Below are positions 20,002 through 42,984 of a stretch of 64,000 bases of DNA, piece by piece. The position numbers and the translations under genes are program-made. The stretch lies in NCBI GenBank assembly GCA_024998685.1, contig JACOEH010000012.1, positions 1 to 64,000 on the forward strand, read 5' to 3'. The notes below the pieces were generated by a model. That model did not search any database. It was not told the origin of the DNA and saw only the letters and a program-made list of their open reading frames with translations. Source of the stretch: Nitrospira sp. GTDB lineage: Bacteria; Nitrospirota; Nitrospiria; Nitrospirales; Nitrospiraceae. The stretch's first letter is position 1, and each line of letters starts with the position of its first letter.

Positions 20002-20099
20002 GTCTCCAACTTCCTCAGGTTTCTTCCCGGATAGATCGAAGGGGAAAAACTCGCCGCCATTCCTCTCGCTCCCTTGTAGTAGATAATGAGACGTTCAGT

Positions 20100-20317: not shown

Positions 20318-20591
20318 GGAAGGTTTCCACGGCGGGTACGGACGTTCGGCAAAACGCGACGGACTTCAAAACAAGTCATCGAGAGCTTGGCATGGCCCTC
20401 GTCAAGAGAACCAGACTCCCAGACAAGGCAGTTCCTCACCATCGTCTTTATAGTGAGCCACGTTGCAGCGGTGATGTGAGTGCATAGCCGCCGATCGTGG
20501 GCTCCTGATTCCATGACGGAATTTCGAGCAGCGACGCTCGTGTCCACGTTGAACAAATCTCGATGAGACAAAAGAAGGGAAGGGTACGGTC

Positions 20592-20771
20592 ATGGGCGAC
20601 ATGGTTATTTTGGTGATCTGGTTTGCATCAATCATTGCGGGGATGATACTGACGCTGTTGATGCCTGTAATGTTTGCCGACTCGTATGCGAAGGAGGCGA
20701 CCCAAGATGAACGTGCGTACGTAACTTCACGGGAAATTTTGCATGTGGAGGCGCAGAACGTGCGTTCATAG
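20592..20771 (+). CDS. Small single-pass membrane protein (59 aa)
   Basis: The ATG at 20592 follows AGAAGGGAAGG. The protein begins MGDMVILVIWFASIIAGMIL and continues TLLMPVMF, a clear transmembrane helix, followed by a polar tail with TQDERAYVTSREILHVEAQ. No family is recognised. It lies between the decayed AraC copy and the intact AraC gene, oriented toward the latter. Confidence 0.5.
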   Translation: MGDMVILVIWFASIIAGMILTLLMPVMFADSYAKEATQDERAYVTSREILHVEAQNVRS

Positions 20772-20859
20772 CTGCGGATGCTCGTGTCACGTGAATTTGG
20801 CGGCAGGGCTTTGTTACAGTGCGCGCAGGTCGGCCGCATTTCCAGCATGACGGATCTCT

Positions 20860-22734: not shown

Positions 22735-23832
22735 ATGAGCATGTTTGTCACCGGGCTAGGTACAGCCGTCCCTCCCTACCGTTACAGCCAACGTGAATGT
22801 TGGGCCGCGATGCAAGCGGCCCAGCAATTCCCTGAACTCACGGATCGTTCCCGCAGAATTCTGGAGAAAGTGCTCTGTGGCATGGACGGGATCGAGCATC
22901 GGCATTTTGCCCTCAAATCCCTGGATGAAGCGTTCGATATAAGCCCTGATGCGCTGCAGAGTCGATTCCTCCGACACGCTCCTTTCCTCGCCAGTGAAGC
23001 AGCCGAACGAGCCCTCATGGACGCCGGTTTGCGGCCTGATGCAATCGATGGTGTGATCATTTCCACCTGCACCGGGTACCTCTGCCCCGGTCTGACAAGT
23101 TATGTCGCGGAACGTATAGATTTGCGTTCCGATGTCATAGCCCTGGATTTGGTTGGGCTGGGTTGCGGGGCGGCGATCCCGAATTGGCGTGTGGCCGAAG
23201 CCCTCATCACGTCCAAACACTGTCGGCACCTTCTGGCGATCTGCGTTGAAGTCTGTAGTGCTGCGATGTACCTGGATAACGATCCGGGGGTACTCATCAG
23301 CACATGCCTGTTCGGCGATGGCGCAGGAGCTCTCGTGTTGAGCGATCAACCGAGTAATCGAGGTCCCGTGATCGAATGGAGGGCCTCCGAATCAGTCACA
23401 TGCCCCGAACAGCGAGATCTGCTCCGTTTTGAACAGCGAGGAGGTCTACTCCGCAATGTCCTGTCACGCCAGGTGCCAGACTGCGTCGGGGATTATGCGG
23501 AACAGGTGCTCCAGAAGGTCCTTGCCGCCAGCGGCGTTTCAACTGACGAGATTGCAGCGTGGATTCTGCACCCGGGGGGCCGTAAGGTCTTGGGCGCCTT
23601 AGAGAAACGACTCGGACTTGACCCGGAGGATCTCCGTTGGAGCCGATGGGTGCTGCGCGAATTCGGGAACCTGAGCAGTGCGTCCGTGTTTTTTGTTTTG
23701 CAGGCGGCCATGAAGGGGAGCGCACCGGACGGCTGGTGGTGGGTGTCATCCTTTGGCGCCGGGTTCAGCTGTCATGGCGCGTTGCTTCGTGTGAACGGAA
23801 ACCAGCGAGGGGCGATTAATCAGGAGCGGTGA
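22735..23832 (+). CDS. Type III polyketide synthase (chalcone/alkylresorcinol synthase family)
   Basis: This 365-residue homodimeric ketosynthase extends an acyl-CoA starter with malonyl-CoA without an acyl carrier protein. The catalytic triad is complete: Cys144 in DLVGLGCGAA, His279 in WILHPGGRK and Asn312 in EFGNLSSAS. AGGAGGA precedes the ATG. Bacterial relatives make alkylresorcinols, alkylpyrones or tetrahydroxynaphthalene. The following methyltransferase and flavin oxidoreductase suggest a methylated, oxidised phenolic lipid or quinone. The product cannot be read from sequence. Confidence 0.95.
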   Translation: MSMFVTGLGTAVPPYRYSQRECWAAMQAAQQFPELTDRSRRILEKVLCGMDGIEHRHFALKSLDEAFDISPDALQSRFLRHAPFLASEAAERALMDAGLRPDAIDGVIISTCTGYLCPGLTSYVAERIDLRSDVIALDLVGLGCGAAIPNWRVAEALITSKHCRHLLAICVEVCSAAMYLDNDPGVLISTCLFGDGAGALVLSDQPSNRGPVIEWRASESVTCPEQRDLLRFEQRGGLLRNVLSRQVPDCVGDYAEQVLQKVLAASGVSTDEIAAWILHPGGRKVLGALEKRLGLDPEDLRWSRWVLREFGNLSSASVFFVLQAAMKGSAPDGWWWVSSFGAGFSCHGALLRVNGNQRGAINQER

Positions 23833-23836
23833 CGTC

Positions 23837-24541
23837 ATGCTTCGTTCCGTAGAACCAGAATGGCTCGATATTCTGCCTGCTGACGATCCCAGCGCCCAGC
23901 GTTCCCGACGTGACCTCCAACGTGTGAATGCCTGGATGCGGCATCCGCAAATTCTCAGCCGCATCCTCACCCGTGTCATCCGTCCAAAGCCTTCGTTCAC
24001 CGTGATTGATTTAGGAGGCGGGGATGGGCGGTTGATGCTCCGCCTCGCGCGCGACCTCGATTGGCGTGACGTACGGCTCACCATCGTCGATCGTCAGAAT
24101 CTGATCACTCGCGAGACTCGTGAGGCGTTCGCCGCCTTGAACTGGAGCGTGGAGCCCGTCGTCGCGGATATTCGAGACTGGCTCGCTCGACCATCAAGCG
24201 ACCGAACCGATGTCATGATCGCCAATTTAGTGCTCCATCATTTCACGGATGACGAACTGGCGGCATGCTTACAGGGCATTGAGAAACGGGCCAGAGTCTT
24301 TGTGGCATGCGAGCCACGGCGTGTCCATCGGGCTATTGTGGGAGCGCGCCTGCTCTGGTTGATCGGGTGCAATACGGTCTCACTGCATGATGCATGGACA
24401 AGCGTTCGTGCAGGGTTCATGGGAATGGAATTGAGTCAACTTTGGCCGTCCGACAGCAACTGCAGCCTGCAGGAGTATGCGGCGGGGCTCTTCACGCACT
24501 GCTTCTTGGCCCAATACCAGCGGTCTGGCAATGACGTATGA
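23837..24541 (+). CDS. SAM-dependent methyltransferase (class I)
   Basis: This 234-residue protein has motif I as VIDLGGGDGRLMLRLA (about residues 55-70), an acidic strand end LTIVDRQNL, and a later motif MIANLVLHHFTDDEL. The order is that of UbiE-like and polyketide O- or C-methyltransferases. It begins 4 bases after the polyketide synthase stop and overlaps the next gene by 11 bases, so the three are translationally linked. It probably methylates the polyketide ring or hydroxyl. Confidence 0.9.
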   Translation: MLRSVEPEWLDILPADDPSAQRSRRDLQRVNAWMRHPQILSRILTRVIRPKPSFTVIDLGGGDGRLMLRLARDLDWRDVRLTIVDRQNLITRETREAFAALNWSVEPVVADIRDWLARPSSDRTDVMIANLVLHHFTDDELAACLQGIEKRARVFVACEPRRVHRAIVGARLLWLIGCNTVSLHDAWTSVRAGFMGMELSQLWPSDSNCSLQEYAAGLFTHCFLAQYQRSGNDV

Positions 24542-25772
24542 CGCCATTATTATCGGCGGAGGGCCGGCCGGCTCCACAGCCGGTCTACTGCTTGCTCGCG
24601 CGGGCTGGTCGGTTGCTCTCGTTGAGAAACAACAATTCCCAAGAGCAAAAGTGTGCGGCGAATTCGTTTCGGCGCCCAGCCTGCAGCTACTGCACGAGTT
24701 AGGCATTGATGAATCGCTGGTTCAATCCGCTGGACCGGAGGTCAGAAGTCTTGGTCTCTTCGTCGGCGGAAAGAGAGTCGTCACCGAGATGCCTCACACG
24801 CAAACTTCTGGTTATCGATTGGGGAGAGCGGTTCCACGCGAACGTCTCGATCTGCTGCTCCTCACGGAAGCCGCTAAGGCGGGCGCAGAGATCTGGCAGC
24901 CTTGGAGCCTCGTTGAGGTTTCGAAGAAGAATAACAGTTTTTATTGCACAATCCGCTCGAAAGAGTCGAGCGAGGCCGATCGGCTATCCAGCCGGCTCGT
25001 GATTGCAGCCCAGGGATCTTGTGGCCATCGTTCACCACTTCAGCAGGGGGAGCTGTCGCCTCGGGCTTCCGACCTCTTCGCCTTTAAGGCCCGTTTCCGA
25101 AATTGCGACCTTTCGCCGGATTTGATGCCCTTAGTTATGTTTCCAGGCGGGTATGGCGGAATGGTGTATACCGATCAGAACCGAACCAGTTTCTCCTTCT
25201 GCATCCGAAGAAATATTCTGGAGCAATGTCGGCATCGTTGGCCAAACCGGAAAGCAGCGGAGGCGGCTTTCGCATACATTCGACAGTCGAGCGCAGTGGT
25301 GAGTCAGGTCTTTGCACAGGCCTCCCTTGACGGGCAATGGTACTCCATCGGACCACTCCGCCCAGGAGTTCGGACTTGCGGTTGTGGAGGGATCTTCTTT
25401 GTCGGCAATGCGGCCGGTGAAGCGCATCCTATCATTGCAGACGGCATCAACATGGCCATCCAGTCTGCATGGATCCTGTGCCAATTTCTTGTCAGGACGA
25501 CACCGTCCGAAATGGAGGACCAAACTCTTGCAATCATAAGTCGCCTGTATGCCAAACAATGGATGAGAGAGTTCGGACCGAGAATTCGCAGCGGATCGTT
25601 GTTCGCCACGATTGCCATGAGTTCGAAGAACATGTGGGGAGGATTTCTCTGTGAACGCCTTCCTCGACTTCTCAAGCTTGGGGCAATTCTTTCTGGAAAG
25701 ACCCGTTCAATCATCACCCCGATGAATTCGCTTCCACACTTTTCTTGCGTCCAACCGGGTGAAATTGGATGA
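24531..25772 (+). CDS. FAD-dependent oxidoreductase, geranylgeranyl reductase/monooxygenase family
   Basis: This 413-residue flavoprotein begins MTYDAIIIGGGPAGSTAGLL, with the Rossmann GxGxxG motif. VEKQQFPRAKVCGEFVS follows the pattern of the geranylgeranyl reductase family. The second FAD motif appears as GNAAGEAHPIIADGINMA. The ATG at 24531 is preferred to the earlier frame opening at 24477 because it removes a spurious N-terminus. Such enzymes hydroxylate aromatic rings or reduce isoprenoids; here oxidation of a phenolic polyketide is most likely. It is the last gene of the operon. Confidence 0.92.
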   Translation: MTYDAIIIGGGPAGSTAGLLLARAGWSVALVEKQQFPRAKVCGEFVSAPSLQLLHELGIDESLVQSAGPEVRSLGLFVGGKRVVTEMPHTQTSGYRLGRAVPRERLDLLLLTEAAKAGAEIWQPWSLVEVSKKNNSFYCTIRSKESSEADRLSSRLVIAAQGSCGHRSPLQQGELSPRASDLFAFKARFRNCDLSPDLMPLVMFPGGYGGMVYTDQNRTSFSFCIRRNILEQCRHRWPNRKAAEAAFAYIRQSSAVVSQVFAQASLDGQWYSIGPLRPGVRTCGCGGIFFVGNAAGEAHPIIADGINMAIQSAWILCQFLVRTTPSEMEDQTLAIISRLYAKQWMREFGPRIRSGSLFATIAMSSKNMWGGFLCERLPRLLKLGAILSGKTRSIITPMNSLPHFSCVQPGEIG

Positions 25773-30160: not shown

Positions 30161-30493
30161 ATGTTTTTTAATCAAGGAGCGCTTACGAGCGGTTTAATGA
30201 CCGTGGCATGTCGGCTGCTAGATGTTTTGATAGAGGATGAGAAGATTGTGGCTACCGAAGAGTTCCATTTTTTAATGAATCGGTTCGTACGCTTCAAGGT
30301 GAGTGACGTCACCATCCCTGGTCCGCAAGTGGTCGTCACTGAGCTGTATGGAGGGGACATCCTGCAAGGGAAGGTCGTTGATATTACGGAGGGTGGGACG
30401 CAGGAGCAGGCGTTCATTGTTGTGAAAGTGGAAGCCATGAAGGACTTTCTCATTCTTCCCGCAGAAAAAGTGATCGGCATGGCGGACCAATGA
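30161..30493 (+). CDS. Small beta-rich hypothetical protein, first of the unusual cluster
   Basis: This protein has 110 residues from the ATG at 30161, or 98 from the ATG at 30197; neither has a well-spaced ribosome-binding site. Alternating hydrophobic strands (VRFKVSDVTIP, QVVVTELYGGDILQGKVVDI, AFIVVKVEAMKDFLILP) suggest a small barrel. No signal peptide or family is recognised. It precedes the transglutaminase-fold gene by a short gap. Confidence 0.6.
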   Translation: MFFNQGALTSGLMTVACRLLDVLIEDEKIVATEEFHFLMNRFVRFKVSDVTIPGPQVVVTELYGGDILQGKVVDITEGGTQEQAFIVVKVEAMKDFLILPAEKVIGMADQ

Positions 30494-30529: not shown

Positions 30530-31633
30530 GTGGATCAAACGATGAGTGGTACGAAATCAAGTGAGTCGTGTCGATGCAACACCATACCTCGTTTGTCGTA
30601 TGCGAATCTCAAGTTGAGTAGAAAGCATGTTCCGCCCATGCAGCGATATACATCGGCGCCGCTCAGCGCGCCGCGGATCACTCTCGGTCATATCCCAACT
30701 GGTTGGCGTGGTACGGAACAAACGGTTGAGCATGTACAGGCACTGATTCGAGCCGGCGCGAAAGATTTTTATGTTCGGCAAAAGGCCATCGACATTTTGT
30801 TGGAGAAGCACGTCAAGCCCAAGGACTACCTGGCCGAAATCAACGCTCTTCTCGAATGGGTCCAACAGCATATTCGTTATACCAAGGACACCTATCAGGT
30901 GGAGGTGCTCCATTCCGCGAGACGCATGCTTGAGTTACGAGCCGGTGACTGCGACGACATGACCATCCTGTTGGGGGCAATGGTGGAGGCAATCGGTCAC
31001 CCAGTGCAGCTGGTCCTGAGCGGACCAGACCCACTCAGGCAGGACCTGTTTACTCATATTTATCTAGAGGTGTTTCACAAAGGCCGTTGGATTCCGTTGG
31101 ACGCCACCATGCCCTATCCGATGGGCTGGGCGCCCAAGACACCGGTGAAAAAAATCATCCCGATCAAGAGGAGGTCCACCATGATGGCTGAGGACATGGA
31201 ATTACAAGGCATCAGCGCTGCCGGGGCAGTTCCGGATTGGCTGAAGGGATTGATCAGGACGGTGCGGAGAGAGGCCCTGCAACCCAAAGACGCACGAATA
31301 AAGTCCTTGTGGGATTTGCTGCGGCAACGTCAATTGCTGCATCGAAGCCGATGGCTCAAGGCAGTGCTGCAGCGTATGTGGAGTAGAGGACTGTCCGCGC
31401 GGCCCCATCCGCGCACTGCGCGCCGGATCGTGAAGAGATTGCGACGGTGGGGCGTCTTGCCGCCGAGGTCAGTGGGTGCAACGGCGTATCGCCCGGCAGG
31501 CGCTCGCCCCGTCACACGAGCTGCTGTTCAGGCGGTTCGACCGGTGGCGCTCAAACCAGTCGCGTCGTTGCGGCCTGCAACCATGCAGCCGGTCCGACCA
31601 GTGCAGATGCAACCGGCGGGAGCAAAGCGATAG
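30530..31633 (+). CDS. Transglutaminase-fold cysteine enzyme with long basic tail
   Basis: This 367-residue protein has a transglutaminase-like core with Cys141 (AGDCDDMT), His176 (FTHIYLEVF) and Asp191 (PLDATMP), so the triad is complete. Such cores act as peptidases, amidases or protein cross-linkers. After about residue 200 there is a segment with EDMELQGISAAG, resembling the repeats of the acidic protein downstream, then an Arg-rich helical tail and a Pro/Val repeat (ARPVTRAAVQAVRPVALKPV). GTG 30530 is chosen for its AGGGAG site; 30506 (ATG) is possible. No signal peptide is seen. It is probably the cluster's processing or cross-linking enzyme. Confidence 0.85.
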   Translation: MDQTMSGTKSSESCRCNTIPRLSYANLKLSRKHVPPMQRYTSAPLSAPRITLGHIPTGWRGTEQTVEHVQALIRAGAKDFYVRQKAIDILLEKHVKPKDYLAEINALLEWVQQHIRYTKDTYQVEVLHSARRMLELRAGDCDDMTILLGAMVEAIGHPVQLVLSGPDPLRQDLFTHIYLEVFHKGRWIPLDATMPYPMGWAPKTPVKKIIPIKRRSTMMAEDMELQGISAAGAVPDWLKGLIRTVRREALQPKDARIKSLWDLLRQRQLLHRSRWLKAVLQRMWSRGLSARPHPRTARRIVKRLRRWGVLPPRSVGATAYRPAGARPVTRAAVQAVRPVALKPVASLRPATMQPVRPVQMQPAGAKR

Positions 31634-31637
31634 GGAA

Positions 31638-32006
31638 ATGAGTTGTCGATGCGAAACATGTTCCCATGGCGATAGCGTTCATAACGGATCGCTGATGAGG
31701 CACACCGACATGGTCATGCCGACTCAACATATGCAGCAAGGGATGAGGCTCTACCGTGCGTTTCATCAATTTGGACCGGCTCACGTCGTGAAAGTTCATC
31801 ATTCCAGAGTCATCCCGCCGGTCGTGGTGGAACTCGGCGAATTGGTGGGGCTGATGTATCGCTCCGATAAAGGACAACCAGGTCAACCTCTAACCTACAT
31901 TCACCGAATGGAGGATCCACCGCGTCTGGTCAGTAACATTGAAGGAACGCAACTGTATATCGTGGGGGGCAGTTACCGTGTCACTCCGCGAGGGATCGAA
32001 GGCTAG
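31638..32006 (+). CDS. Small Cys-rich hypothetical protein
   Basis: This 122-residue protein begins MSCRCETCSHGD, a possible metal-binding CxCxxC. Segments HVVKVHHSRVIPPVVVELGELVGLMY follow, split over about residues 50-75, and the end (LYIVGGSYRVTPRGIEG) looks like a beta domain. The ATG lies 5 bases after the transglutaminase stop with GGGAA before it. A later start at 31694 cannot be excluded. No family is recognised. Confidence 0.6.
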   Translation: MSCRCETCSHGDSVHNGSLMRHTDMVMPTQHMQQGMRLYRAFHQFGPAHVVKVHHSRVIPPVVVELGELVGLMYRSDKGQPGQPLTYIHRMEDPPRLVSNIEGTQLYIVGGSYRVTPRGIEG

Positions 32007-32073: not shown

Positions 32074-32388
32074 ATGGAAAAGAATCAACAGCTCGGATTG
32101 GATGAGTTGATGATCGTGAACCCCAGTGCATCGGGGGAAGAGGCCATGTTTCTTGGCGAAGACGGCACGTTGTATCAGATGCAGAGTCTTGGAAAAAGCA
32201 CAGGGCAAGGAATGGGGCAATACTTTCTGAGCGGGGACGGTTCGCTCTATCAAGTACAGGATTCCGAAGCCGGCAGTTCAGCTGAGCCGGCCAAAAATTC
32301 AGGAGAAGGTCTGAGACAAGAGGAAGGCCGTGGGATCGGCCGATATTTCCTCGGGTCGGACGGGATGTTGTACGAGGTTGTCAGGTAG
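32074..32388 (+). CDS. DGxLYQ-repeat protein (short)
   Basis: This 104-residue acidic protein is built of three similar segments: MFLGEDGTLYQMQSLG, YFLSGDGSLYQVQDSE and YFLGSDGMLYEVV. They are separated by Gly/Ser/Glu-rich linkers (STGQGMGQ, EEGRGIGR). GAGGGAAC precedes the ATG. The same [DG]xLYQ unit occurs three times in the longer protein at 33068, so the two are related and may interact. No signal peptide or known domain is visible. Confidence 0.75.
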   Translation: MEKNQQLGLDELMIVNPSASGEEAMFLGEDGTLYQMQSLGKSTGQGMGQYFLSGDGSLYQVQDSEAGSSAEPAKNSGEGLRQEEGRGIGRYFLGSDGMLYEVVR

Positions 32389-32419: not shown

Positions 32420-33040
32420 ATGGCGAAGGTGCAAGGTGTGAAAGAAAAACTGCATTCCCCGCTCTACGATGCGTTCTTCGTGAAGCAAGAAGGCTCAAAA
32501 AAGTTCACAGATTTTATGACCGATCCACGAGTAATTCGCTTTTTCGTCGATATTCAGAACAAAACCAGGTTGGAAACGAACCTGCAAGCTTCCGGCGTTC
32601 TGCCCAGCTTGAATACATTCGAGGCGCGTGCCTTGCGCGTGGTGGTTTCAAACCTACGTTTCGAGGAGCCCACGGCTGGGGCGCCGAGAGGCGCGCTCAA
32701 TGAAAGTGCAATTTTGGCGGACCTTATCTACAACTCTGTGACTTCATTGATTGTGGGGGAAAAGATAATGATCGAGATGCCGACCTTCTGGTTTCCATCC
32801 GGCGCCGGTGTCAGTCCAGGCCTCACTGTCTCCAACCACGGCGAACCTGATCCAACTGCGACATTCCGCTTCGCCGAGCCTGTGTATATCGAACCACAGC
32901 AGGCCTTCCGAGTAGAGATGGCATTCCCTCAGGGAGTACCAGGAGTAACTCCACCAGAAACCGAAAAGTTGGCCCACGTAACCGGTCCACTTCGTATCTG
33001 GGTCGTACTGGATGGCTACCTGACGCGTGATGTCCAGTAA
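32420..33040 (+). CDS. Beta-rich structural-type protein 1
   Basis: This 206-residue protein has its ATG preceded by AAAGGAGG. It lacks a signal peptide and is strand-rich in the second half: LIVGEKIMIEMPTFWFP, then YIEPQQAFRVEMAFP, then LRIWVVLDGYLTRDV at the end. The pattern xxPxxxFRVEM followed by xxVxLxGY is shared with the protein at 34153, so both may have one fold, such as a jelly-roll-like sandwich. Strong ribosome-binding sites suggest high expression. I suspect an abundant structural subunit, but no known capsid or coat family is recognised. Confidence 0.75.
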   Translation: MAKVQGVKEKLHSPLYDAFFVKQEGSKKFTDFMTDPRVIRFFVDIQNKTRLETNLQASGVLPSLNTFEARALRVVVSNLRFEEPTAGAPRGALNESAILADLIYNSVTSLIVGEKIMIEMPTFWFPSGAGVSPGLTVSNHGEPDPTATFRFAEPVYIEPQQAFRVEMAFPQGVPGVTPPETEKLAHVTGPLRIWVVLDGYLTRDVQ

Positions 33041-33067: not shown

Positions 33068-34057
33068 ATGCAGTACTTGAGCGAAGACCAAGTGAACCAG
33101 ATGATGGGCGTCGGCTACCTCGGCGAGGTGCGGCAGGGGCCGGATGGGAATCTCTATCAATATGTGCAGGGGGTGGATGGTTTGGGAAACCCCATCGGCG
33201 GCTTCTGGAGTAGATTGAAGCGGTTTGCTCGTGGGGTAGTCCGCAAGGCGCTGCCCATAGCCCAACAATTTGCCCCGTTTATTCCCGGAGGTGCTACGGC
33301 GCTTACAGCAGTGACTCCATTTCTCAAACAGGCCGGAGTCGCCGGGCAAGAGGGTCTCGGCGCACTCTATCAAGCGCCGGACGGCAGCCTGTACCAGCAG
33401 GTCCAGGGCTTAGCCGAAGACGAGGAGCTCCGGGGGCTGGGAGAAGACGAGGTCACCCAGATGATGGGCATCGGTTATCTCGGCGAGGTGCGTCAGGGGC
33501 CGGATGGGAATCTGTATCAATATGTGCAGGGGGTGGATGGTCTGGGAAACCCCATCGGCGGCTTCTGGAGCAGGTTGAAGCGTGTTGCTCGCGGGGTAGT
33601 TCGCAAGGCGCTGCCCATAGCCCAACGATTTGCGCCTTTTATTCCCGGGGGCGCTGCGGCGCTTACAGTTGCAACTCCATTCCTGAAACAGGCCGGCGTT
33701 GCGGGCTATCAAGGTCTGGACGAAGACGATGAGCTTCGAGGTCTCGCCGAAGATGAAGAACTGCGAGGTCTGGACGAAGACGAAGAGTTGCGAGGAATCG
33801 ATGAAGACGAAGAGCTACGCGGACTTTCAGAAGACGAGGAATTGCGCGGCCTGGATGCGGACGACGAGCTACAGGGCCTTGCCGAAGATGAAGATCTGCG
33901 TGGCGTTGGAGAAGACCAGGATATGCAAGGATTCGACGGTTATATACGGCGGGACGGCATGAATGGACTGGAAGCTTTCGTGCCGCAGGAACCTCCGCAG
34001 ACGCGTTGGCATGTGGCTTCCGCCCAGCCGCCGGAGGTGTGGAAACCACTGTGGTAA
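33068..34057 (+). CDS. Tandemly duplicated DGxLYQ protein with acidic nonapeptide repeats
   Basis: This 329-residue protein consists of two near-identical blocks of 120 residues followed by a repeat tail. Each block has GYLGEVRQGPDGNLYQYVQG, a basic amphipathic stretch (WSRLKRFARGVVRKALP), and a hydrophobic segment (FIPGGATALTAVTPFLKQAG) that could enter or bind a membrane. The tail has eight units of GLxEDEELR type, strongly acidic. The C-terminus ends PPEVWKPLW. The ATG is preceded by AAAGGAGG. It could be a scaffold, spacer or membrane-active component. No family is recognised. Confidence 0.8.
   Translation: MQYLSEDQVNQMMGVGYLGEVRQGPDGNLYQYVQGVDGLGNPIGGFWSRLKRFARGVVRKALPIAQQFAPFIPGGATALTAVTPFLKQAGVAGQEGLGALYQAPDGSLYQQVQGLAEDEELRGLGEDEVTQMMGIGYLGEVRQGPDGNLYQYVQGVDGLGNPIGGFWSRLKRVARGVVRKALPIAQRFAPFIPGGAAALTVATPFLKQAGVAGYQGLDEDDELRGLAEDEELRGLDEDEELRGIDEDEELRGLSEDEELRGLDADDELQGLAEDEDLRGVGEDQDMQGFDGYIRRDGMNGLEAFVPQEPPQTRWHVASAQPPEVWKPLW
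33086..33720 (+). repeat. 360-bp-period tandem duplication
   Basis: ATGATGGGC at 33101 and ATGATGGGC at 33461 mark equivalent points exactly 360 bases apart. Long stretches (for example GGGCCGGATGGGAATCT and GGGGGTGGATGG) are identical between copies, and substitutions are few and mostly silent. The duplication is therefore recent or homogenised. Confidence 0.85.
33713..33928 (+). repeat. Eight 27-bp units coding for acidic nonapeptides
   Basis: Units read GLDEDDELR, GLAEDEELR, GLDEDEELR, GIDEDEELR, GLSEDEELR, GLDADDELQ, GLAEDEDLR and GVGEDQDMQ. Synonymous codons vary between units, so the amino-acid pattern seems selected. An isolated unit (GLAEDEELR) also lies between the two large blocks. 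Confidence 0.85.
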
Positions 34058-34152: not shown

Positions 34153-34782
34153 ATGCGATTTGGATTGAGTCAAGACCAGCAACAGGTCCCCACGCGATCA
34201 GCGCCGGACATGACGCCGCCGACTGCATCGCCAACGACCAAAGAGATTCCCTACGATTATGTGGCCAAATTCACATTGAAAGGACAACGCGGCAATCGTG
34301 TGCAGGATGTGATCAACATCAGTATCGAAGGCGCATTCATCGCAACGGCCATCGGCTATAGCTTTATCCCCGCGAAGTTACAGACGTTGACGACGGGAGT
34401 TACAGGTGTGCTCAGCGCATCAGCGAATGACAGCTTGGGCCTATTGCTCAACAGTCTGCTGGCACTGGAACAAAACGACCCTCGGATGCTTGCTCAATGC
34501 GTGCTCGTGAAACTCTGCGGGATCGACTTCAAGTACAGCATCGTCGATAGCGGCAGCGGCCGTGAGTTGCAAAATCAGCCGATTCATAATATCGCGGGAC
34601 TCGGTGAGGCAACCGGTGAGCGGCCCTTCCGGCCTTTGGCCAAACCGATGCTGTTCATGCCTCGCTCGACCATTCGGCTCGAAATTGAGGAGATCTCGGA
34701 AGGGCCGGTTTACGCCAATGCGGAACTGTTCATCGTGTTGCACGGCTACAAGATACTGGGCTTCGGGACGGGGATGTCATGA
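34153..34782 (+). CDS. Beta-rich structural-type protein 2
   Basis: This 209-residue protein has a strong AGGAGG site upstream. The N-terminus MRFGLSQDQQQVPTRS resembles the tagged leaders downstream only loosely. The core has YVAKFTLKGQRGNRVQDVI, LFMPRSTIRLEIEEIS and AELFIVLHGYKILGFG. The last two match the arrangement in the protein at 32420, suggesting a common fold and perhaps a hetero-oligomer. No signal peptide is present. It overlaps the next gene by 4 bases (ATGA). Confidence 0.75.
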   Translation: MRFGLSQDQQQVPTRSAPDMTPPTASPTTKEIPYDYVAKFTLKGQRGNRVQDVINISIEGAFIATAIGYSFIPAKLQTLTTGVTGVLSASANDSLGLLLNSLLALEQNDPRMLAQCVLVKLCGIDFKYSIVDSGSGRELQNQPIHNIAGLGEATGERPFRPLAKPMLFMPRSTIRLEIEEISEGPVYANAELFIVLHGYKILGFGTGMS

Positions 34783-35276
34783 ACGGCAACCATGCGTGCG
34801 ATGTTCATCGAGACGCTAGTTATTCCAATGTATGCCAGGTCTGCGGCGTTCCCATGGATGCCGGCTATTTCGATGTCGCCAGTATCAAGGACGCGCCCAA
34901 GAAAGTAGGAGATGAAGTCGAGCTTGCGCGATACGAGCTGAACCCCCAGTATTGCGGCACATTGCTGTATTTCATGCAATATGCAGAGGATTCTGTCACG
35001 ACGAAGCAAGTAATATCCCACACACCCGGTTATCAATGGGTGATTCTCTGTAACAATCAGCCCCGCGCCCCGTACCTACCCACAGAACTGATCTTAAATC
35101 CATGGGGTGCGAATGCCCTTCGTATCGAATTGAGATTGGAAGAGGGCTGCACGTTGCGGTTCGTCGTGAGAAGAGTCGCGACTACCGTGTCGCCGGAATT
35201 GTCGCAAGTCGGAGGCCGGCTCCTCGGTCGAACTTGGTACAACACGATCTATGGAGGAACGCCGAATCGATTATGA
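34779..35276 (+). CDS. Cys/His-containing beta-sandwich-like protein
   Basis: This 165-residue protein starts with CDVHRDASYSNVCQVCG, a possible zinc knuckle (C/H/C/C). A strand-rich domain follows: YQWVILCNNQP, TELILNPWGANALRIEL and CTLRFVVRRVATTV. It is translationally coupled to the preceding structural-type gene. The position suggests a linker or vertex component; this is inference and no family is recognised. Confidence 0.7.
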   Translation: MNGNHACDVHRDASYSNVCQVCGVPMDAGYFDVASIKDAPKKVGDEVELARYELNPQYCGTLLYFMQYAEDSVTTKQVISHTPGYQWVILCNNQPRAPYLPTELILNPWGANALRIELRLEEGCTLRFVVRRVATTVSPELSQVGGRLLGRTWYNTIYGGTPNRL

Positions 35277-35368: not shown

Positions 35369-35923
35369 ATGTATCTAAGAACAAAGGGAGGGTTGGGATG
35401 GGACCTGGAGCCAAGATTGGCTCCACCACCCTTTAATCAAGTTATGGCCGAGCCGATTCCCATCGGCTACTTGGGTAGGCTCAACGAGCAGATGGGAAAT
35501 GCCAAGGAATCCTGTGAGGCCCGATATAAAGTCGAATACTTTCAACCGGGCAGTGAGACGTTTACCAGAGTAATTGAGAAAGATATCCAGGATATTTGGA
35601 AAAATATGTTTGGTTTGCTTCGACGCAAACTAAGGGGGAAGAAGATAGACATAAAAAAAGACGTAATACTGACCATTATTACTAAAGGTTATATGGATGT
35701 GTCCGGCGACGTAGCGGAAAAACGCGAAGCTCTTGACGCTTTTCGTGCATTCGCGGTGTTGGAAGCGCTTCACCGCCAGGCATTATTGAAAAATATTCCT
35801 CGTAAAAATATAGAATATGATTACTCGGGTAAAGGTCAACGCCTACCTAGAAATCGGAAATCTGGTAAGAACCGTATGGTCGACGTTTGCATACGGTGGG
35901 ATATTAAACCGCAAACACCGTGA
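35369..35923 (+). CDS. Leader-tagged protein with OmpA-like C-terminal region
   Basis: This 184-residue protein starts with the cluster leader in the form MYLRTKGGLGWDLEPRL, with AAGGAG before the ATG. The C-terminal half resembles OmpA/MotB peptidoglycan-binding domains: VILTIITKGYMDVSGD, EALDAFRAFAVLEALHR, then KNIEYDYSGKGQRLPR and GKNRMVDVCI, where KNRxVDV mimics the NRRVEI signature. The characteristic second aspartate is not obvious, so binding may be lost. No signal peptide is seen. It is the first of the leader-tagged series. Confidence 0.65.
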   Translation: MYLRTKGGLGWDLEPRLAPPPFNQVMAEPIPIGYLGRLNEQMGNAKESCEARYKVEYFQPGSETFTRVIEKDIQDIWKNMFGLLRRKLRGKKIDIKKDVILTIITKGYMDVSGDVAEKREALDAFRAFAVLEALHRQALLKNIPRKNIEYDYSGKGQRLPRNRKSGKNRMVDVCIRWDIKPQTP

Positions 35924-36105: not shown

Positions 36106-36819
36106 ATGTACGTGACTGCCAGACAAGGGTTGGAGCAAGCCCCGATGCTGGGTCAGCACTCTCTGAAGCACCTGCCAGACTGGATGAGACTCTACCTGAA
36201 TAATGTTGACGCGAATTACCGATCCTACACATGGCTGTTTTTTATTTTCTTGGCACATCCCACCCCCCACTCGGTCAGCACATTGAGATCGTTGGGAGAT
36301 AAGATCGCGTTCGATCTGCGCGGCGTTCCCCTTTTTTGGTGGGGCGAGCTCCGCGAAGAACTAAACCGGATCCGGGTCCGCCGTCAGATGGAAGACAAAG
36401 ACTTCGCACGACTGCTTTCAAAGTATTTTCGGCTTTTTCAAGAGGTTGATAAGAGATTTAAGACATTCAAACGGGAAGATCTGAAGCCCTTTCTGATTGA
36501 GGTATTACTGGCTAGCGGCCGGATCAAGAATGTGCCGGGCAGTGATCCCAAAAATTGGGCGGGACCCTTCCTTCACACTGGCGGTCCCTCGTTGAACCTA
36601 GGAAAACGCTTCGTCAGGGAGAAGTTGCCTCCGGAGCTGTCCAAACGACTCACCGAAAGCCCATGGTATGTCCAAGAAGTCATCTACGCGCACTTGGCAA
36701 GGTCGCTCTGGGTCATGGCGAACGCTTTTCAATTCGAAAATGCCGCCTTCCGAAAAGAGGTTGAGAGGGAGGAGAAAGCTAGGACTACGCGAGTGATCGA
36801 GAAAACAAAGAGTGAATAG
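36106..36819 (+). CDS. Leader-tagged family A protein, member 1
   Basis: This 237-residue protein has the leader MYVTARQGLEQAPMLGQ, with AAAGGAGG upstream. It aligns with the proteins at 37657 and 39418. Shared landmarks are WLFFIFLAHP (LLIV in the others), FARLLSKYFRLFQEV, LKPFLIEVLLASG, then FVREKLPPELSKRL and a charged C-terminal helix (REEKARTTRVIEK). The fold appears alpha-helical. No enzymatic motif or signal peptide is visible. It is the most diverged of the three. Confidence 0.7.
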   Translation: MYVTARQGLEQAPMLGQHSLKHLPDWMRLYLNNVDANYRSYTWLFFIFLAHPTPHSVSTLRSLGDKIAFDLRGVPLFWWGELREELNRIRVRRQMEDKDFARLLSKYFRLFQEVDKRFKTFKREDLKPFLIEVLLASGRIKNVPGSDPKNWAGPFLHTGGPSLNLGKRFVREKLPPELSKRLTESPWYVQEVIYAHLARSLWVMANAFQFENAAFRKEVEREEKARTTRVIEKTKSE

Positions 36820-36856: not shown

Positions 36857-37192
36857 ATGTACATGTCGGTAGGTCTAGGACAGCCGCAGACCCAATCGGA
36901 TTGTTCCGGATGGGAGAAAGACCCGGAAAGCTTTAGCCGAGTCATCGCCAAACACCATATACGCACGGAGCTGGGACAGTCACTTAACGTTAAAAGGATG
37001 AGTCGGGTCACTCAGACAGCGTGGCGAATAGAATTCCCCAATGATATTGCGGTTTATGTAACCCTTGCGAAAGTTCCAGATTTCGTCGTCGCCGCACGCT
37101 GGTACCCGAAGCCGGCGGGGAAATCCCGCTTCTATACATATTCCTGCACAAGCGATGGCCAGGTGGTGTTCACGGAGCGTCAGAGGCCGTAA
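36857..37192 (+). CDS. Leader-tagged family C protein, member 1
   Basis: This 111-residue protein has the leader MYMSVGLGQPQTQSDCSGWE. The remainder looks like a small alpha/beta domain (WRIEFPNDIAVYVTLAKVP, FVVAARWYP, FYTYSCTSDGQVVF). The truncated ORF at 38403 begins MYLPTTLGQPQGQGSCSGWE and is clearly a relative that shares the leader and the CSGWE that follows it. No known family is recognised. Confidence 0.65.
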   Translation: MYMSVGLGQPQTQSDCSGWEKDPESFSRVIAKHHIRTELGQSLNVKRMSRVTQTAWRIEFPNDIAVYVTLAKVPDFVVAARWYPKPAGKSRFYTYSCTSDGQVVFTERQRP

Positions 37193-37225: not shown

Positions 37226-37622
37226 ATGTATCTTGAAACTGGCTTAGGGCAACCTTCCAAACGGCGACGGAAAAGACCATTCATATCGCCACCGAGAGTC
37301 GTTCCGGCAGATGACCTATTTCGAGCAGAAATGCTGTGGCGTTTGAAAGTTCCATTCAGAAGAGACCTTGAGGCCTTTCGTCAGGAAGTGGCGAAGGCAA
37401 TTGGGGCGGCATGTTATTAAGGATGCAAGCGATATAACAAAGGTAGATGATTGGATATTAAAGCGCGAGGAGAATGAGCAGCGCCTTAACACCATACATC
37501 ATGATCTACTGAAACTCGCCAAGAAAGAATCCGACATCGTTATAGTCCGCACCAGATATACCTTTCTTAGAGGCGTTGACACGGTGATCTCTACAGTGGA
37601 AATCGTAAGGGCGGAGTACTGA
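37226..37622 (+). pseudogene. Leader-tagged family B protein, member 1, frameshifted
   Basis: The first frame (to 37420) reads MYLETGLGQPSKRRRKR, then LKVPFRRDLEAFRQEVAKAIG. The match to the protein at 40135 (IPFRKDFRAFRQELSRAIG) then moves to the +1 frame, which runs to 37622 (WILKREENEQRLNTIHHDLL and the strand-rich IVIVRTRYTFLRGVD). One inserted base near 37400-37415, within a G-rich run, would explain it. It may be a pseudogene, a +1 frameshift, or an assembly error. Confidence 0.65.
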
Positions 37623-37656: not shown

Positions 37657-38355
37657 ATGTATATAAATACGGGCGCAGAATCAGTGCAGATTCCCATGGT
37701 GCACGGGTCCGTTTCCGGCACACTCGGCGAAGACGTCGATTCGAAGAAGATTATTAATGACTTTCTCAATCAAGTCCGCCGGAACCCCCAAAGTTTCAAG
37801 AAGCTCCTCTTGATTGTCGCTTTGCACCCCATGCCCGATGACAGCCGTATCGGGGAGAAGCAGACTTTTACATTGGGTAAAGAGACTCGATATCTTGTTG
37901 ATGAGATCCTGATGTCGGGACTATCAACGGCGTTTGTCGTAACTGTGCTTAAGCGGTACAGCGATGCCAACTTCAGTCGGCAAATCAAAGATGAGGCGCA
38001 TCTCCAGATTAAGATGATTCTCGCTACTCAGAATTTGAATAAAACGGTGCTTCAACCATTTTTGTATGACCCATTATTATTGCCAATGTCTGGCGGGGGG
38101 CTGCCCTACAAGGAACTTTCCAGGTTAGCCCGACATTTCGCGCAACATATGTTGCCGGGGGATCTTGTGCAACGGATCATGAATAGCGATGCCTCCGAGG
38201 CGCACTTTGCCCATCTTGGGAGTTATCTCCGCAGCCACGCTGAGACGTTGCAAAAAAAGGATCCCCACTTCAAACGCCAAGTAGAGATAGCACGCAAGTG
38301 GCAGCGAGAACTGGAACAAAGGAGAAAACAGCAGGGAACAAAGAAAGCCCCATGA
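37657..38355 (+). CDS. Leader-tagged family A protein, member 2
   Basis: This 232-residue protein has the leader MYINTGAESVQIPMVHGS, the least typical of the set. It shares with the 39418 protein the order: GTLGE, FLNQVRRNPQSFKKLLLIVA, FSRQIKDEAHLQIKMIL, LQPFLYDPLLLP, FAQHMLPGDLVQRIMNS, AHFAHLGSYL, and a basic C-terminal helix. The fold appears helical and without transmembrane segments. The function is unknown. Confidence 0.7.
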   Translation: MYINTGAESVQIPMVHGSVSGTLGEDVDSKKIINDFLNQVRRNPQSFKKLLLIVALHPMPDDSRIGEKQTFTLGKETRYLVDEILMSGLSTAFVVTVLKRYSDANFSRQIKDEAHLQIKMILATQNLNKTVLQPFLYDPLLLPMSGGGLPYKELSRLARHFAQHMLPGDLVQRIMNSDASEAHFAHLGSYLRSHAETLQKKDPHFKRQVEIARKWQRELEQRRKQQGTKKAP

Positions 38356-38402: not shown

Positions 38403-38516
38403 ATGTATCTGCCGACAACTCTGGGACAACCGCAAGGCCAAGGAAGCTGCTCAGGGTGGGAGCGCTACGCGGAACGCTGGTTTTCAGCAATTCGCAAGCA
38501 GGCCCAAAAAATGTAG
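38403..38516 (+). pseudogene. Leader-tagged family C protein, member 2, truncated to 37 residues
   Basis: This ORF reads MYLPTTLGQPQGQGSCSGWE, then RYAERWFSAIRKQAQKM and a stop. The first 20 residues parallel those of the protein at 36857; the remainder does not. The next leader-tagged gene begins 17 bases later. It may be the scar of a cassette replacement, or a free leader peptide that is still translated (GAAGATTCGCC precedes the ATG). Confidence 0.55.
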
Positions 38517-38532
38517 CGAGGAGGTTGCGCAC

Positions 38533-39417: not shown

Positions 39418-40077
39418 ATGTACCTGAGAACAGCAGAAGGGTTAGGGCAAGTCCCAATGCGATACAACCCTTTTGCCGGCACACTGGGTGAACCCCCACT
39501 TCCGCCCGAGATTCAGAAGTTCCTCGCTAGAGTAAAAGGGAATCCCCAGAACTATGAAGCGGTTCTTTTGATCGTCCACTTTCACGAAGAACCGTTTATA
39601 AGCGATCGATTGAGGAGGGCCTTTTCGGCAAGCTTTGAAAACGACGCAAAAGATCCGCTTGAAGAAGCCAAAGCGATCCAGGGGGCAGTGACTCAGGCGT
39701 TGGAAGGCATCTACAAAAAGCATCTACGGGATAACCGTTTCAGTCAGCTCGTTAAGAAAGAGCAGCAACTTATCTCGGAGGTTGTCAAGGCTTTCCAGAA
39801 ACGCATCAAAGAATTGGAAACCAAAGGATGGTTAGAGCCGCTTCTGATCGATGCGTTGCTGGCCGACGACCCCCTTGGTCTACCCGCGGTCGGAAGGGCA
39901 TTTGTCCTTTCTAGTTTGCCAGATGAGATTGCTGAAGAGGTTCTTAACAGCAGGGTGCCGGAAACGCATTATATGAGGTTAGGGAAAGTCCTCCTCTTGA
40001 TGGCAGAGCAGCGAAAAAACGCTAATCCTGTTTTCAAAGAACGCATCGAAAAAGAGCGGAAAAAGCGAGGGCAATAG
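39418..40077 (+). CDS. Leader-tagged family A protein, member 3
   Basis: This 219-residue protein has the leader MYLRTAEGLGQVPMRYNPF, preceded by GGGAGGACC. It is the closest relative of the protein at 37657: GTLGEPPLPPEIQKFLARV, NPQNYEAVLLIVHFHE, FSQLVKKEQQLISEVVKAF, LEPLLIDALLADDPLGLP, SLPDEIAEEVLNSRVPETHY and a Lys/Arg-rich terminal helix. The fold appears helical with no enzymatic motif. It lies 177 bases after the previous gene. Confidence 0.7.
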   Translation: MYLRTAEGLGQVPMRYNPFAGTLGEPPLPPEIQKFLARVKGNPQNYEAVLLIVHFHEEPFISDRLRRAFSASFENDAKDPLEEAKAIQGAVTQALEGIYKKHLRDNRFSQLVKKEQQLISEVVKAFQKRIKELETKGWLEPLLIDALLADDPLGLPAVGRAFVLSSLPDEIAEEVLNSRVPETHYMRLGKVLLLMAEQRKNANPVFKERIEKERKKRGQ

Positions 40078-40134: not shown

Positions 40135-40503
40135 ATGTATCTTGAGACCGGCTTGGGACAGCCATTCAAACAGCGATCTCCCTATAAGCCTGACCTAAGA
40201 AACGTAACTGCGCATTGGACTGTCCAAATACCGTTTAGAAAAGATTTTCGGGCCTTTCGTCAGGAGCTCAGCCGCGCGATTGGATGGCCACACTCAGGGG
40301 GCCTTCTTCGCGATGAAACCGACAAGAAATATTTTGACGGGTACCTGCAGGACGATCTTCTCAAGGCCATGCATAATCGACTGCTGAAGCGCAAATCCCC
40401 CAAACTCAAAGCAGATGATGTGGTTAAGGTGAACGTTGATATCACATTCAAGAGTATGGATTACACGAACCTGGCGGAAATTGCTGTGAAGGAACAAAGA
40501 TAA
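40135..40503 (+). CDS. Leader-tagged family B protein, member 2 (intact)
   Basis: This 122-residue protein has the leader MYLETGLGQPFKQRSPYK, nearly the same as the frameshifted relative at 37226. The body has WTVQIPFRKDFRAFRQEL, LLKAMHNRLLKRKSP and VVKVNVDITFKSMDY, then EIAVKEQR. It looks like a small alpha/beta domain with two strands flanking helices. No known family is recognised. A short tetranucleotide repeat follows its stop. Confidence 0.65.
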   Translation: MYLETGLGQPFKQRSPYKPDLRNVTAHWTVQIPFRKDFRAFRQELSRAIGWPHSGGLLRDETDKKYFDGYLQDDLLKAMHNRLLKRKSPKLKADDVVKVNVDITFKSMDYTNLAEIAVKEQR

Positions 40504-40565: not shown

Positions 40566-40778
40566 ATGGAACAACCCGTTACCTCGCGGCCTGCTTTACG
40601 CAATTCTTATTGCTGTGATCGAGTTGTTAGCGATTTCTTGAGACGTGGAGGAGCCGACAGTGAATATGGTTGGGCACATGAAGGGTTGGGACAATCGATT
40701 GCTGATGCACTCTCCAAAAAAGCTCAGGCACCTTTCATTGTTGCCGCAACATACCAACTTATAGGAGAAATACGATGA
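40566..40778 (+). pseudogene. Decayed leader-tagged ORF coupled to the fibre-like gene
   Basis: The frame contains EYGWAHEGLGQSIADALS, which mimics a leader (MYxxxxEGLGQ) whose ATG has become GAA. GGAGGAG lies at the expected distance upstream. Downstream residues are SKKAQAPFIVAATYQL, and the stop overlaps the next ATG by 4 bases. Translation could still begin upstream at 40566, but without a good site. It may persist for coupling. Confidence 0.5.
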
Positions 40779-41329
40779 CTACTATTTCCACTCAATCAAA
40801 TGATGGTGGCCTCGTTATCACGTCGAATGACGGCAAGCTCAATTCTCAATCTGCGGTCCTGGAGGTGAGTGCTACCAACGAGGACTATAACCAACCCGTG
40901 CTGCGTATCAAACAAGCAGGTACACATGGAGGGGCGGCCTCGATCCGGATCGATGACCCGAATCCCGACATCGAGTTTGTCGAGACGGGCCTAACGGGTC
41001 CTGATCCCAACGCCGGGAAGTTCGAGATTGCCGTTCAGGCGGACCAACTCCAGATCAACGGCCGCAAAGCCGATGTCGGCCCCAACAAAGGCTTTGAGAC
41101 CATTATCGTGTTCACGCGGCCCGCAGCGGGCGGCAATATCGGTATCGGATTTCCCGAAGCCAACTACAAAAAGTTTGCAGGAGGAAAGGGTGTCATTGTG
41201 ATCGCGAATGCCTCTGTCGCTCCTTCCCCGCAGAAGAAGATCGCCGGCGCGGGCATCTTGTTTGTTCAGGATGGGGCGCTCAAGTATATGGGTTCTAAGG
41301 GAACGGTGACGGAGATCGCGCCGGCCTAG
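40775..41329 (+). CDS. Tail-fibre/receptor-binding-like protein
   Basis: This 184-residue, Gly/Asp-rich, strand-repeating protein has no signal peptide. The middle (LRIKQAGTHGGAASIRIDDP) and especially the end (GAGILFVQDGALKYMGSKGT, then VTEIAPA) resemble C-termini of phage tail-fibre and minor tail proteins, where GGGVLYVxxGALKYxGSxGT is common. It is probably a trimeric beta-structure exposed at a particle tip or surface. It is translationally coupled to the decayed ORF before it and followed by the peptidase gene. Confidence 0.7.
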   Translation: MTTISTQSNDGGLVITSNDGKLNSQSAVLEVSATNEDYNQPVLRIKQAGTHGGAASIRIDDPNPDIEFVETGLTGPDPNAGKFEIAVQADQLQINGRKADVGPNKGFETIIVFTRPAAGGNIGIGFPEANYKKFAGGKGVIVIANASVAPSPQKKIAGAGILFVQDGALKYMGSKGTVTEIAPA

Positions 41330-41409
41330 CAGTTATCAGCCGCTCCTTCGCCTCGACGAAGGAGCACTCTGACAGACTCAGTCGCCTTCTGCAGAAAAGG
41401 AGATTGACG

Positions 41410-42984
41410 ATGAGCCGCAAAACAAGACAGGCTCGCTCAAAAGTTCCGTCTCGCGCTCGACGAGCCTCTCACTTCATTTGGCCCCTCGGCAAGAGTCCCA
41501 CCACGCCGGATGAGATGAACACGTCCTACGGTCCGCGTATCGACGCGGATCGCTGGGATTTTCATGACGGCATCGATTTGCCTGCTCCCGTCGGTACAGC
41601 GGTCCATGCCATGGCGGACGGCACGGTGCATCGCGCCGGGCCGGCGGATCAGGTTTTCGGCTCAACCCATGTTCGTCTCAAAGTCGTCGATCCGACGGAT
41701 GGGCAGGATGACCTGTTTCTTGTTTATCTCCATCTCGACAGTATCGCCGAGGGTGTGATTCCCGGTGTCCAGGTGAACCAAGGCGATGTGCTTGGTGCGG
41801 TGGGGCAGGAGGATGCAGAGTATCCACATCTTCATTTCGAGTTTCGGAAAGGCGGTCCCGAAGAAGTCCACAGCGTGCATCCGCTGCGTTATCTGGATTA
41901 CTTGAATACGGCGAATTTCACGCGGCTCCGTTTGGATCGCTGTAATTTCTCCAGCGACGACGGCGACAAGCGACTGGTGAGGCTTCGTTTTGACGTCGTG
42001 GACCGCCGAGAGGGTGATGTGAAGGGCGTGGATGTGGAATTGAAGCGCGTCGGCGGCGAGCCTCAGAAGCTTCACGTTGACTTCGATGACCGAGAGACCA
42101 TTGTGAGCGATAAGGGCGACCAACATGCCTTCAAGAATGGAATCGCTGTGGAAGGTTACCAGAAATCCAACCTGAAGGGAGAGGGATTGAAGGCTCTACG
42201 TTATGGCGTGCTGATCAAGGATATTGCTCCGGAATTCGAACGTGTGAAGCTCAATGTGCTGGATGCCAGGAATGAGAACCAGAAGAGCGCCGAATTTCCT
42301 TTGCCGAAACTGAGAACCGGCCAGAAGCCCATCAATAGTCGCGCCGGTTTTGAAGAAAGAGAATCGTTTCCGCCTCGAGGTTGGGAACTCAGCATACGGT
42401 CCGGGAATATCTGCCGGCCGGATGAACGCGCCAAGCTTACAGATGCGCGCGGATTACTCTGTCAAGACCTCGGTAGCACGCGAGGACCTCTGATTCGCGC
42501 AGGGCTGCGCTTTGCCTTGCCCATCGACCGTGCTGTTCGTCCCATGTCCTGGCGCCTAAAGGCCGACATTAAGCCCGCAGAATTGCAAATGGGAAAGGGA
42601 TTGGTGATGCATCCGTTGGTCTTCTTGGCAGGCAACGAGATCGTCGCCGCCGCTTGCCTGCGGAAGGTCGTCAGCGGAGAACTCTTTGCAGGCGTCATGA
42701 TTCGCAGCAAGGACGGATTCTTCAGGGAGCGAATCAACAAGGGCGAGAAGGGAAAGATTTCCATGGACGGCCCGATCGGATGGGAGGTTGAGCTGCCCAG
42801 AATAGGCACCAGACAGACGACGGCCCTATTACGGCTCAACGACGAGATAGTGGCTCGCATCAACGGCGATACGACGAGGGTCGAGCCTGATGCCGCCTGT
42901 GTGGGTATTGTGCATCGGCACAGCGGATTACAGATCACGCTCCATGTTGATCAATTGCTCCTGACGGAGCGCCGTGATAGATGA
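41410..42984 (+). CDS. M23-family peptidase with large C-terminal extension
   Basis: This 524-residue protein starts at the ATG at 41410 with AAAGGAG upstream. A basic N-terminus (MSRKTRQARSKVPSRARRAS) without a signal peptide precedes the lysostaphin-like domain. The zinc ligands are present: His52 and Asp56 (HDGID) and His140/His142 (PHLHF). M23 enzymes cut peptidoglycan cross-bridges. After residue 160 there is a long beta-rich region of unknown type, ending with a possible concanavalin-like fold (LQITLHVDQLLLTE). As the last gene of the cluster it could open the cell wall for release or entry. Confidence 0.85.
   Translation: MSRKTRQARSKVPSRARRASHFIWPLGKSPTTPDEMNTSYGPRIDADRWDFHDGIDLPAPVGTAVHAMADGTVHRAGPADQVFGSTHVRLKVVDPTDGQDDLFLVYLHLDSIAEGVIPGVQVNQGDVLGAVGQEDAEYPHLHFEFRKGGPEEVHSVHPLRYLDYLNTANFTRLRLDRCNFSSDDGDKRLVRLRFDVVDRREGDVKGVDVELKRVGGEPQKLHVDFDDRETIVSDKGDQHAFKNGIAVEGYQKSNLKGEGLKALRYGVLIKDIAPEFERVKLNVLDARNENQKSAEFPLPKLRTGQKPINSRAGFEERESFPPRGWELSIRSGNICRPDERAKLTDARGLLCQDLGSTRGPLIRAGLRFALPIDRAVRPMSWRLKADIKPAELQMGKGLVMHPLVFLAGNEIVAAACLRKVVSGELFAGVMIRSKDGFFRERINKGEKGKISMDGPIGWEVELPRIGTRQTTALLRLNDEIVARINGDTTRVEPDAACVGIVHRHSGLQITLHVDQLLLTERRDR

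Follow-up and report, generated by a model that had tools for sequence, protein, structure and literature searches.

A constant gene block around a transglutaminase-fold enzyme of Nitrospira, and its possible relation to a tailless-virus shell with tagged cargo

The transglutaminase (TGase)-fold enzyme described here lies in a 64,000-nucleotide stretch of a Nitrospira sp. contig (the window), within a row of forward-strand genes (Table 1). The row runs from a sigma-54 activator through a, the TGase, b, c, d, e, f, g and h to o, to q and the M23 peptidase r, with decayed genes interspersed among the leader-tagged genes h to o. It comprises a constant block, enzyme-b-c-d-e-f-g, followed by swappable genes that carry an MY[ILV]... 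leader at their N-termini. The flanking open reading frames (ORFs), as read, are ordinary chromosomal genes, uracil-DNA glycosylase-like upstream and carotenoid/hopanoid-type downstream. Of the window proteins that were searched, only the activator, the TGase and the peptidase have convincing matches in Pfam, NCBIfam or PHROG. Elsewhere in the window, at 22735-25772, chalcone/stilbene-synthase-like, methyltransferase-like and FAD oxidoreductase-like genes stand in a row that by eye resembles a small type III polyketide cluster.

Table 1. Features of the block and of the cassette that follows it, in window coordinates.
Feature	Position	Strand	Basis or remark
Sigma-54-dependent activator, AAA+ domain and C-terminal helix-turn-helix	28259..29953	+	NCBIfam; upstream of block
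Putative sigma-54-like -24/-12 promoter, TGGCATGTCGGCTGC	30204..30218	+	consensus match only
a, small conserved protein, start uncertain	30242..30493	+	homologues in Nitrospira, Vicinamibacteria and Verrucomicrobia loci
TGase-fold enzyme, triad C141/H176/D191, basic Pro/Arg-rich tail	30530..31633	+	Pfam; alignment of 25 relatives
b, small conserved protein (...QLYIVGGxYRVTxRGIEG)	31638..32006	+	after enzyme in most loci
c, [DN]E[LV]MIVNP protein with LGEDGTLYQ modules	32074..32388	+	HMM
d, predicted single jelly-roll, capsid-like	32420..33040	+	AF2 model, fold searches, 19-sequence alignment
e, scaffold or minor-shell candidate	33068..34057	+	sequence, homologues
f, predicted jelly roll	34153..34782	+	AF2 model, fold searches
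g, conserved protein with CxxC, last of constant block	34779..35276	+	in all loci whose contig reaches g
h, candidate cargo, leader MYLRTKGGLGWD, without Gln	35369..35923	+	leader comparison
i, candidate cargo, leader MYVTARQGLEQAPMLGQ	36106..36819	+	paralogue of l and n
j, candidate cargo, leader MYMSVGLGQP	36857..37192	+	leader comparison
k, candidate cargo, leader MYLETGLGQP, shorter than o	37226..37420	+	remainder out of frame (37368-37622)
l, candidate cargo, leader MYINTGAESVQIP	37657..38355	+	leader comparison
Decayed candidate cargo, intact leader MYLPTTLGQP, 37 codons then stop	38403..38516	+	
n, candidate cargo, leader MYLRTAEGLGQVPM	39418..40077	+	comparison with G258 relative
o, candidate cargo, leader MYLETGLGQP	40135..40503	+	leader comparison
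p, leaderless remnant of a large candidate cargo gene (543 aa in G258)	40566..40778	+	
q, conserved Nitrospira protein closing the cassette	40775..41329	+	comparison with relatives
r, M23 peptidase with C-terminal extension, start uncertain	41404..42984	+	PF01551, E 5.2e-18

The enzyme gene has a GTG start and encodes 367 residues. Its product matches Pfam Transglut_core (PF01841) with an E-value of 1.8e-10 and 41.5 bits, against a curated cut-off of 23. The transglutaminase fold and complete Cys-His-Asp triad that an earlier note on this DNA had read from the letters are thus borne out, the triad at Cys141, His176 and Asp191 in the numbering of that note, and the protein looks like an active enzyme by its sequence. 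Specifically, C141 and D191 show no variation among 25 aligned relatives, and H176 is kept in at least 90% of them; the row that lacks it is L018, a distant viral sequence. The enzyme shares its fold, triad and GDC(D/E) motif with the Transglutaminase-like superfamily, within which it forms a separate subfamily tied to its own gene block. The repeat-like EDMELQG, also pointed out earlier, is present, with DMELQG at residue 222; however, neither this motif nor the C-terminal tail is conserved among the other family TGases of the 25-relative alignment, and we rejected it as a conserved TGase feature. The sequences L039-L068, which matched over short stretches and are apparently generic bacterial TGases, were set aside.

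A scan with the TGase alignment over 84,980 species, with one genome per species, returned 19 close family members. Their hosts are Nitrospira, Methylococcaceae, Caldilineales, Mycolicibacterium vaccae, Streptomyces atriruber, KSB1, Calditrichaceae, a gammaproteobacterial MAG, Acidobacteria/Vicinamibacteria/Bryobacteraceae and Verrucomicrobia, and the block as a whole is found in about eight phyla (Nitrospirota, Methylococcales, Chloroflexota, Actinomycetota, KSB1/Calditrichota, Acidobacteriota and Verrucomicrobiota). All loci on sufficiently long contigs have the order TGase, (b, c), d, (e), f, g; b was not found at the Mycolicibacterium and Streptomyces loci. Pairwise identities of the TGase correlate with those of d, f and g (r of 0.54, 0.60 and 0.80, with none of 2000 permutations as high), and so these genes travel as a unit. 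A search with g in 251 Methylococcales genomes found three besides the one at its centre, and all three carry the TGase and the whole block; one of them, G518, is probably the same genome as L025, since the two have contigs of equal length and give the same scores. Nothing beyond the centre was found in 337 genomes from the phylum of the Verrucomicrobia locus or in 394 genomes from the class of the Mycolicibacterium locus, which argues for a rare and patchy system. A cultured carrier of the block is Methylomonas methanica NCIMB 11130 (L027). Among 59 sampled close relatives of the window's genome, the enzyme gene occurs only in that genome itself and in G030, of the same genus.

The activator is most similar in NCBIfam to an RtcR-like family (318 bits, under the cut-off of that equivalog), and an activator was also matched in L021-L023, L025, L027, L031, L032 and L035-L038, where L022 and L023 are the contigs of G258 and G030. 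Sites resembling the putative promoter also immediately precede the block in G030, G258, L021, L027, G502, G456 and L037. Sigma-54-like sites occur about 0.06 times per kb per strand in the window; a broad -24/-12 pattern was at chance level, and it took a stricter score for the site near the start of the block to stand out. Of the small proteins, c has a motif that recurs in repeat-rich proteins of KSB1, Calditrichaceae and Verrucomicrobia. Protein e contains two GNLYQYVQGVDGLGNP plus amphipathic modules and nine acidic heptads of the D/E-rich ELRG/ELQG kind (DEELRGL, DDELQGL and others), which are similar to the enzyme's DMELQG and match no other window ORF of at least 80 aa. Two basic amphipathic stretches of e (FWSRLKRFARGVVRKALPIAQ...) recall membrane-active minor capsid peptides. 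Additionally, f is present as two or three domains or copies in KSB1, Calditrichaceae, Acidobacteria and Verrucomicrobia.

All seven leader-tagged genes of the window start with M-Y-[ILVM]. Of the 87 window ORFs of at least 150 aa, just four start with MY, three from the cassette and an unrelated one on the minus strand, and this rarity means that the start recurs on the cassette genes more often than by chance. From related loci, 44 leader-bearing genes were gathered by seeking MY-type starts beside the block; Tyr stands at position 2 in 42 of them, a share that is partly built in by this way of collecting, and most starts read M-Y-[ILV], often with GLG or a variant of it further on. In two pairs the leader is better conserved than what follows it: n and its G258 relative (G258_2) share 85% identity over the first 26 residues and 29% over the rest, and between k and o the leader is 78% and the body 42% identical. 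In the remaining pairs leader and body are equally conserved, or the leader is the less conserved part. The bodies change from locus to locus. In G030 the flanks and core are about 80% identical to the window, and the whole interval from g to q consists of unrelated proteins with leaders of the same type (MYIKTDGGLGLAPM, MYIRTGGDLGRLS, MYLRYAHGLGRAAA, MYIDGLQSN). G258, of the same family and another genus, has the block at a different chromosomal place, with a cassette partly shared with the window. Domains recognised among the cassette proteins elsewhere are Amidase_2, VanY, Trypsin_2, beta-lactamase-like, M35-like and DUF2515; the VanY protein sits in a cargo position but without an MY leader. 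Decayed regions lie at 37226-37622 (where k is apparently frameshifted), 38403-39240 and 40566-40778 of the window. Such decay suggests a rapid turnover of the cassette, or else errors of assembly.

The earlier note had proposed that the enzyme might join an LGQ glutamine offered by every leader to lysines in the cargo tails. Most window leaders do have LGQ; h (MYLRTKGGLGWD) and l (MYINTGAESVQIPM) do not, and the i leader (MYVTARQGLEQAPMLGQ) has it only at residues 15-17. Across the related loci LGQ is present in 12 of the 44 leaders and absent from 32, a count that the choice of leaders by their MY starts does not affect. In orthologous leaders the glutamine is replaced by Leu (L021 MYIKTDGGLGQAPM, GLGQAPMLDG, versus G030 MYIKTDGGLGLAPM, GLGLAPMLDG) or by Asp (window o MYLETGLGQPFK, TGLGQPF, versus G258 MYLQTDLGDGVFK, TDLGDGV), and the clusters concerned retain the catalytic triad. 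On the acceptor side, the expected Lys-rich ends are found in the paralogues i, l and n, with 4-5 Lys in the last 25 residues, and less so in h, j, k and o, with 1-3. The unfavourable Gln-Pro pairs that the note itself had flagged are indeed seen in j, k and o. We therefore reject the leader LGQ as a conserved acyl donor, and a link between leader glutamines and Lys-rich tails appears highly improbable. The other option raised with it, cleavage of the leader, may occur; no invariant scissile motif was found among the leaders. These results shift the focus away from the leader glutamine. The leader itself may be a tag for sorting, and the enzyme may have its substrates among the predicted shell proteins.

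Among phage proteins, the TGase matches gp34 of Salisaeta icosahedral phage 1 (SSIP-1) best, at 27% identity over 146 residues with an E-value of 2e-7. By this sequence match the two proteins are related; gp34 is annotated as a structural protein and has the same triad. SSIP-1 is a membrane-containing icosahedral phage that encodes two types of capsid protein (PMC6356626; PMC5332951). TGases 40% identical to the enzyme, with a C-terminal hydrophobic segment, are encoded on the viral contigs L016 and L017. These are IMG/VR contigs of about 35 kb, and no relatives of SSIP-1 genes were detected in the rest of their gene content.

The AlphaFold models of d and f are mostly beta with middling confidence (pLDDT of 75 and 70), and both proteins are predicted to adopt jelly-roll folds. 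The two best PDB entries for d are the capsids of SPV1 and SH1 (Foldseek E-values of 0.003 and 0.02). In VIA-align, d gave Z scores of 6.9 with SPV1 (rmsd 3.8, 137 aligned), about 6.6 with peptidylglycine monooxygenase (PHM), 6.2 with HHIV-2 and 5.7 with P23-77 VP17, and f gave 8.8 with PHM, 8.7 with SPV1 (rmsd 3.8, 125 aligned), 8.6 with satellite panicum mosaic virus and 7.1 with HCIV-1. As PHM scores equally, these values by themselves would not settle whether the modelled folds are capsids. Among the BFVD viral models, d matches I1ZBH9 best (211 aa, E 3.7e-6), and the accession that follows it in number, I1ZBI0 (256 aa), is on the hit list too. The two are probably SSIP-1 gp46 and gp47, whose genes directly follow each other and whose lengths, 211 and 256 aa, are exactly the same. 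A profile of d run against the SSIP-1 proteins also found gp46 best, weakly, at 2.2 bits (EPVxIEPQQxFRVE versus DPLHLEPQESWTLD), a score reached by none of 300 shuffles of gp46 itself but by 92 pooled shuffles. Sequence comparison of d, f and g with SSIP-1 or with PDB capsids found nothing significant, and it is the structure models that point there. Taken together, the gp34 match of the enzyme and the probable gp46 match of d mean that two separate genes of the block lead to SSIP-1.

Neither d nor f was found in 50,697 phage records or in IMG/VR, and d was not found in 72,556 plasmids. The clusters of 10 of the 12 loci contain no Walker-A motif, and in the other two it occurs only in short ORFs that overlap core genes; no replication gene was recognised in the ORFs read. 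These absences from phage, IMG/VR and plasmid sets, together with the lack of informative PHROG matches and of a convincing packaging ATPase, rule out an ordinary prophage. The missing ATPase also fits a reading in which there is no particle at all, and the block encodes sigma-54-regulated cellular jelly-roll enzymes or surface proteins that are sorted by an N-terminal tag. PHM, a cellular jelly-roll enzyme, matches f and d as well as the capsids do, and jelly-roll capsid proteins have known homologues in cells (PMC8812541). However, the enzyme and d, encoded by separate genes, both point to SSIP-1, and the best PDB matches of d are capsids of tailless viruses. We consider such a reading unlikely.

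With moderate confidence, we instead favour a host-encoded particle system with a shell and tagged cargo, akin to tailless phages with an internal membrane such as SSIP-1. The enzyme would be one of its core parts, catalytically intact and probably with a role in maturation. In this system the sigma-54 activator would switch the block on, the jelly-roll shell would be built from d and f and perhaps g, and c and e would serve as repeat or scaffold proteins. The genes after g would supply exchangeable cargo, for which the MY[ILV]...(G)LG leader may act as a loading or docking tag; that a scaffold or shell is apparently combined with leader-tagged cargo in the enzyme's own cluster agrees with what the earlier note had supposed. 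More broadly, and at somewhat less than an even chance, a domesticated tailless-virus shell spread over about eight phyla may load, and probably deliver, tag-bearing enzymes with a TGase-fold maturation enzyme built in, its lineage being other than the tailed-phage one of encapsulins, most gene transfer agents and tailocins. No route of export was identified. If true, cells would have a second way of making protein carriers out of virus shells, one that starts from membrane-containing icosahedral viruses; the tag could serve to load foreign enzymes into such shells, and the TGase-fold proteins of tailless phages would gain a first context. If the jelly rolls form no shells, the claim reduces to a new conserved gene block with an unexplained function.

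Within the favoured particle system, the most likely substrates of the enzyme are proteins of the particle itself, acted on while it assembles. Proteases are common among bacterial TGase-fold proteins, and on this ground our first guess for the reaction is that of a cysteine peptidase or amidase of maturation, with cross-linking ranked second and outward action on a target envelope third. As to cross-linking, a true transglutaminase might join shell proteins or fix cargo through glutamines outside the leaders. Protein d ends in TR(D/G)VQ (ERDVQ once; 33023-33040 in the window) with Gln as the last residue before the stop in all 19 sequences, from many phyla, and by its sequence conservation this residue would be a better candidate than the leaders; Q140 of f is invariant, the triad is conserved, and the ELQG/ELRG motif is common to the window TGase and e. 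On the other hand, DMELQG and the C-terminal tail vary among the family TGases, no acceptor Lys was identified, the invariant residues may be purely structural, and SSIP-1 gp45 and gp46 lack a terminal Gln. Cross-linking of this kind has a small share of the probability.

Alternatively, the particle may be as proposed, with the enzyme facing outward as a particle-borne amidase or peptidase that acts on the envelope of a target cell. The annotation of the phage homologue gp34 as a structural protein, the several cell-wall hydrolases among the cargos and the M23 peptidase of the Nitrospira clusters agree with such a role. Yet the non-phage versions of the enzyme lack the C-terminal hydrophobic segment of L016 and L017, and the enzyme is leaderless, its gene grouped with those for assembly rather than with the cargo, which leaves an outward role rather improbable.

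The literature searched, which lay outside most subscription papers, contains no description of such a block. SSIP-1 (JN880423) is close to it in having a TGase-fold structural protein with the triad, gp34, and a probable best viral structural match of d, gp46. It differs in being a free virus with a 43.8 kb genome, whereas the block has no recognised replication or packaging gene, has leader-bearing cargo genes added, and encodes d, f and g without significant sequence similarity to the phage. The vertical single jelly-roll viruses (SH1, HHIV-2, HCIV-1 and P23-77) and SPV1 have, as the block does, two different small jelly-roll genes near each other; the likeness is at the level of the fold, with middling Z scores, and the block is chromosomal and without an ATPase. 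In encapsulins, a chromosomally encoded shell of virus type sequesters cargo enzymes (PMC8987985), and the cargo is loaded through a short targeting peptide (PMC7925596). Encapsulins are the nearest known kind by working principle. They have the HK97 fold, in contrast to the predicted jelly rolls, several candidate shell genes, N-terminal tag and accessory enzyme of the block, and d, f and g gave no encapsulin match in Pfam or NCBIfam.

Extracellular contractile injection systems and polymorphic toxin systems combine a constant machinery with variable effector-like enzymes. The block shares this layout, but no tail, sheath or spike gene was recognised in it. A known anti-phage defence system was rejected, as 10 proteins gave no match to the PADLOC defence models. 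Two minor observations concern the variable end of the clusters: SAM-methyltransferase-like genes lie near the cargo cassettes in L075 (6295-7098; KSB1) and, on the reverse strand, in L076 (Calditrichaceae), and L021 has a tandem second copy of q and r at 18918-21098, which may be a duplication or an assembly artefact.
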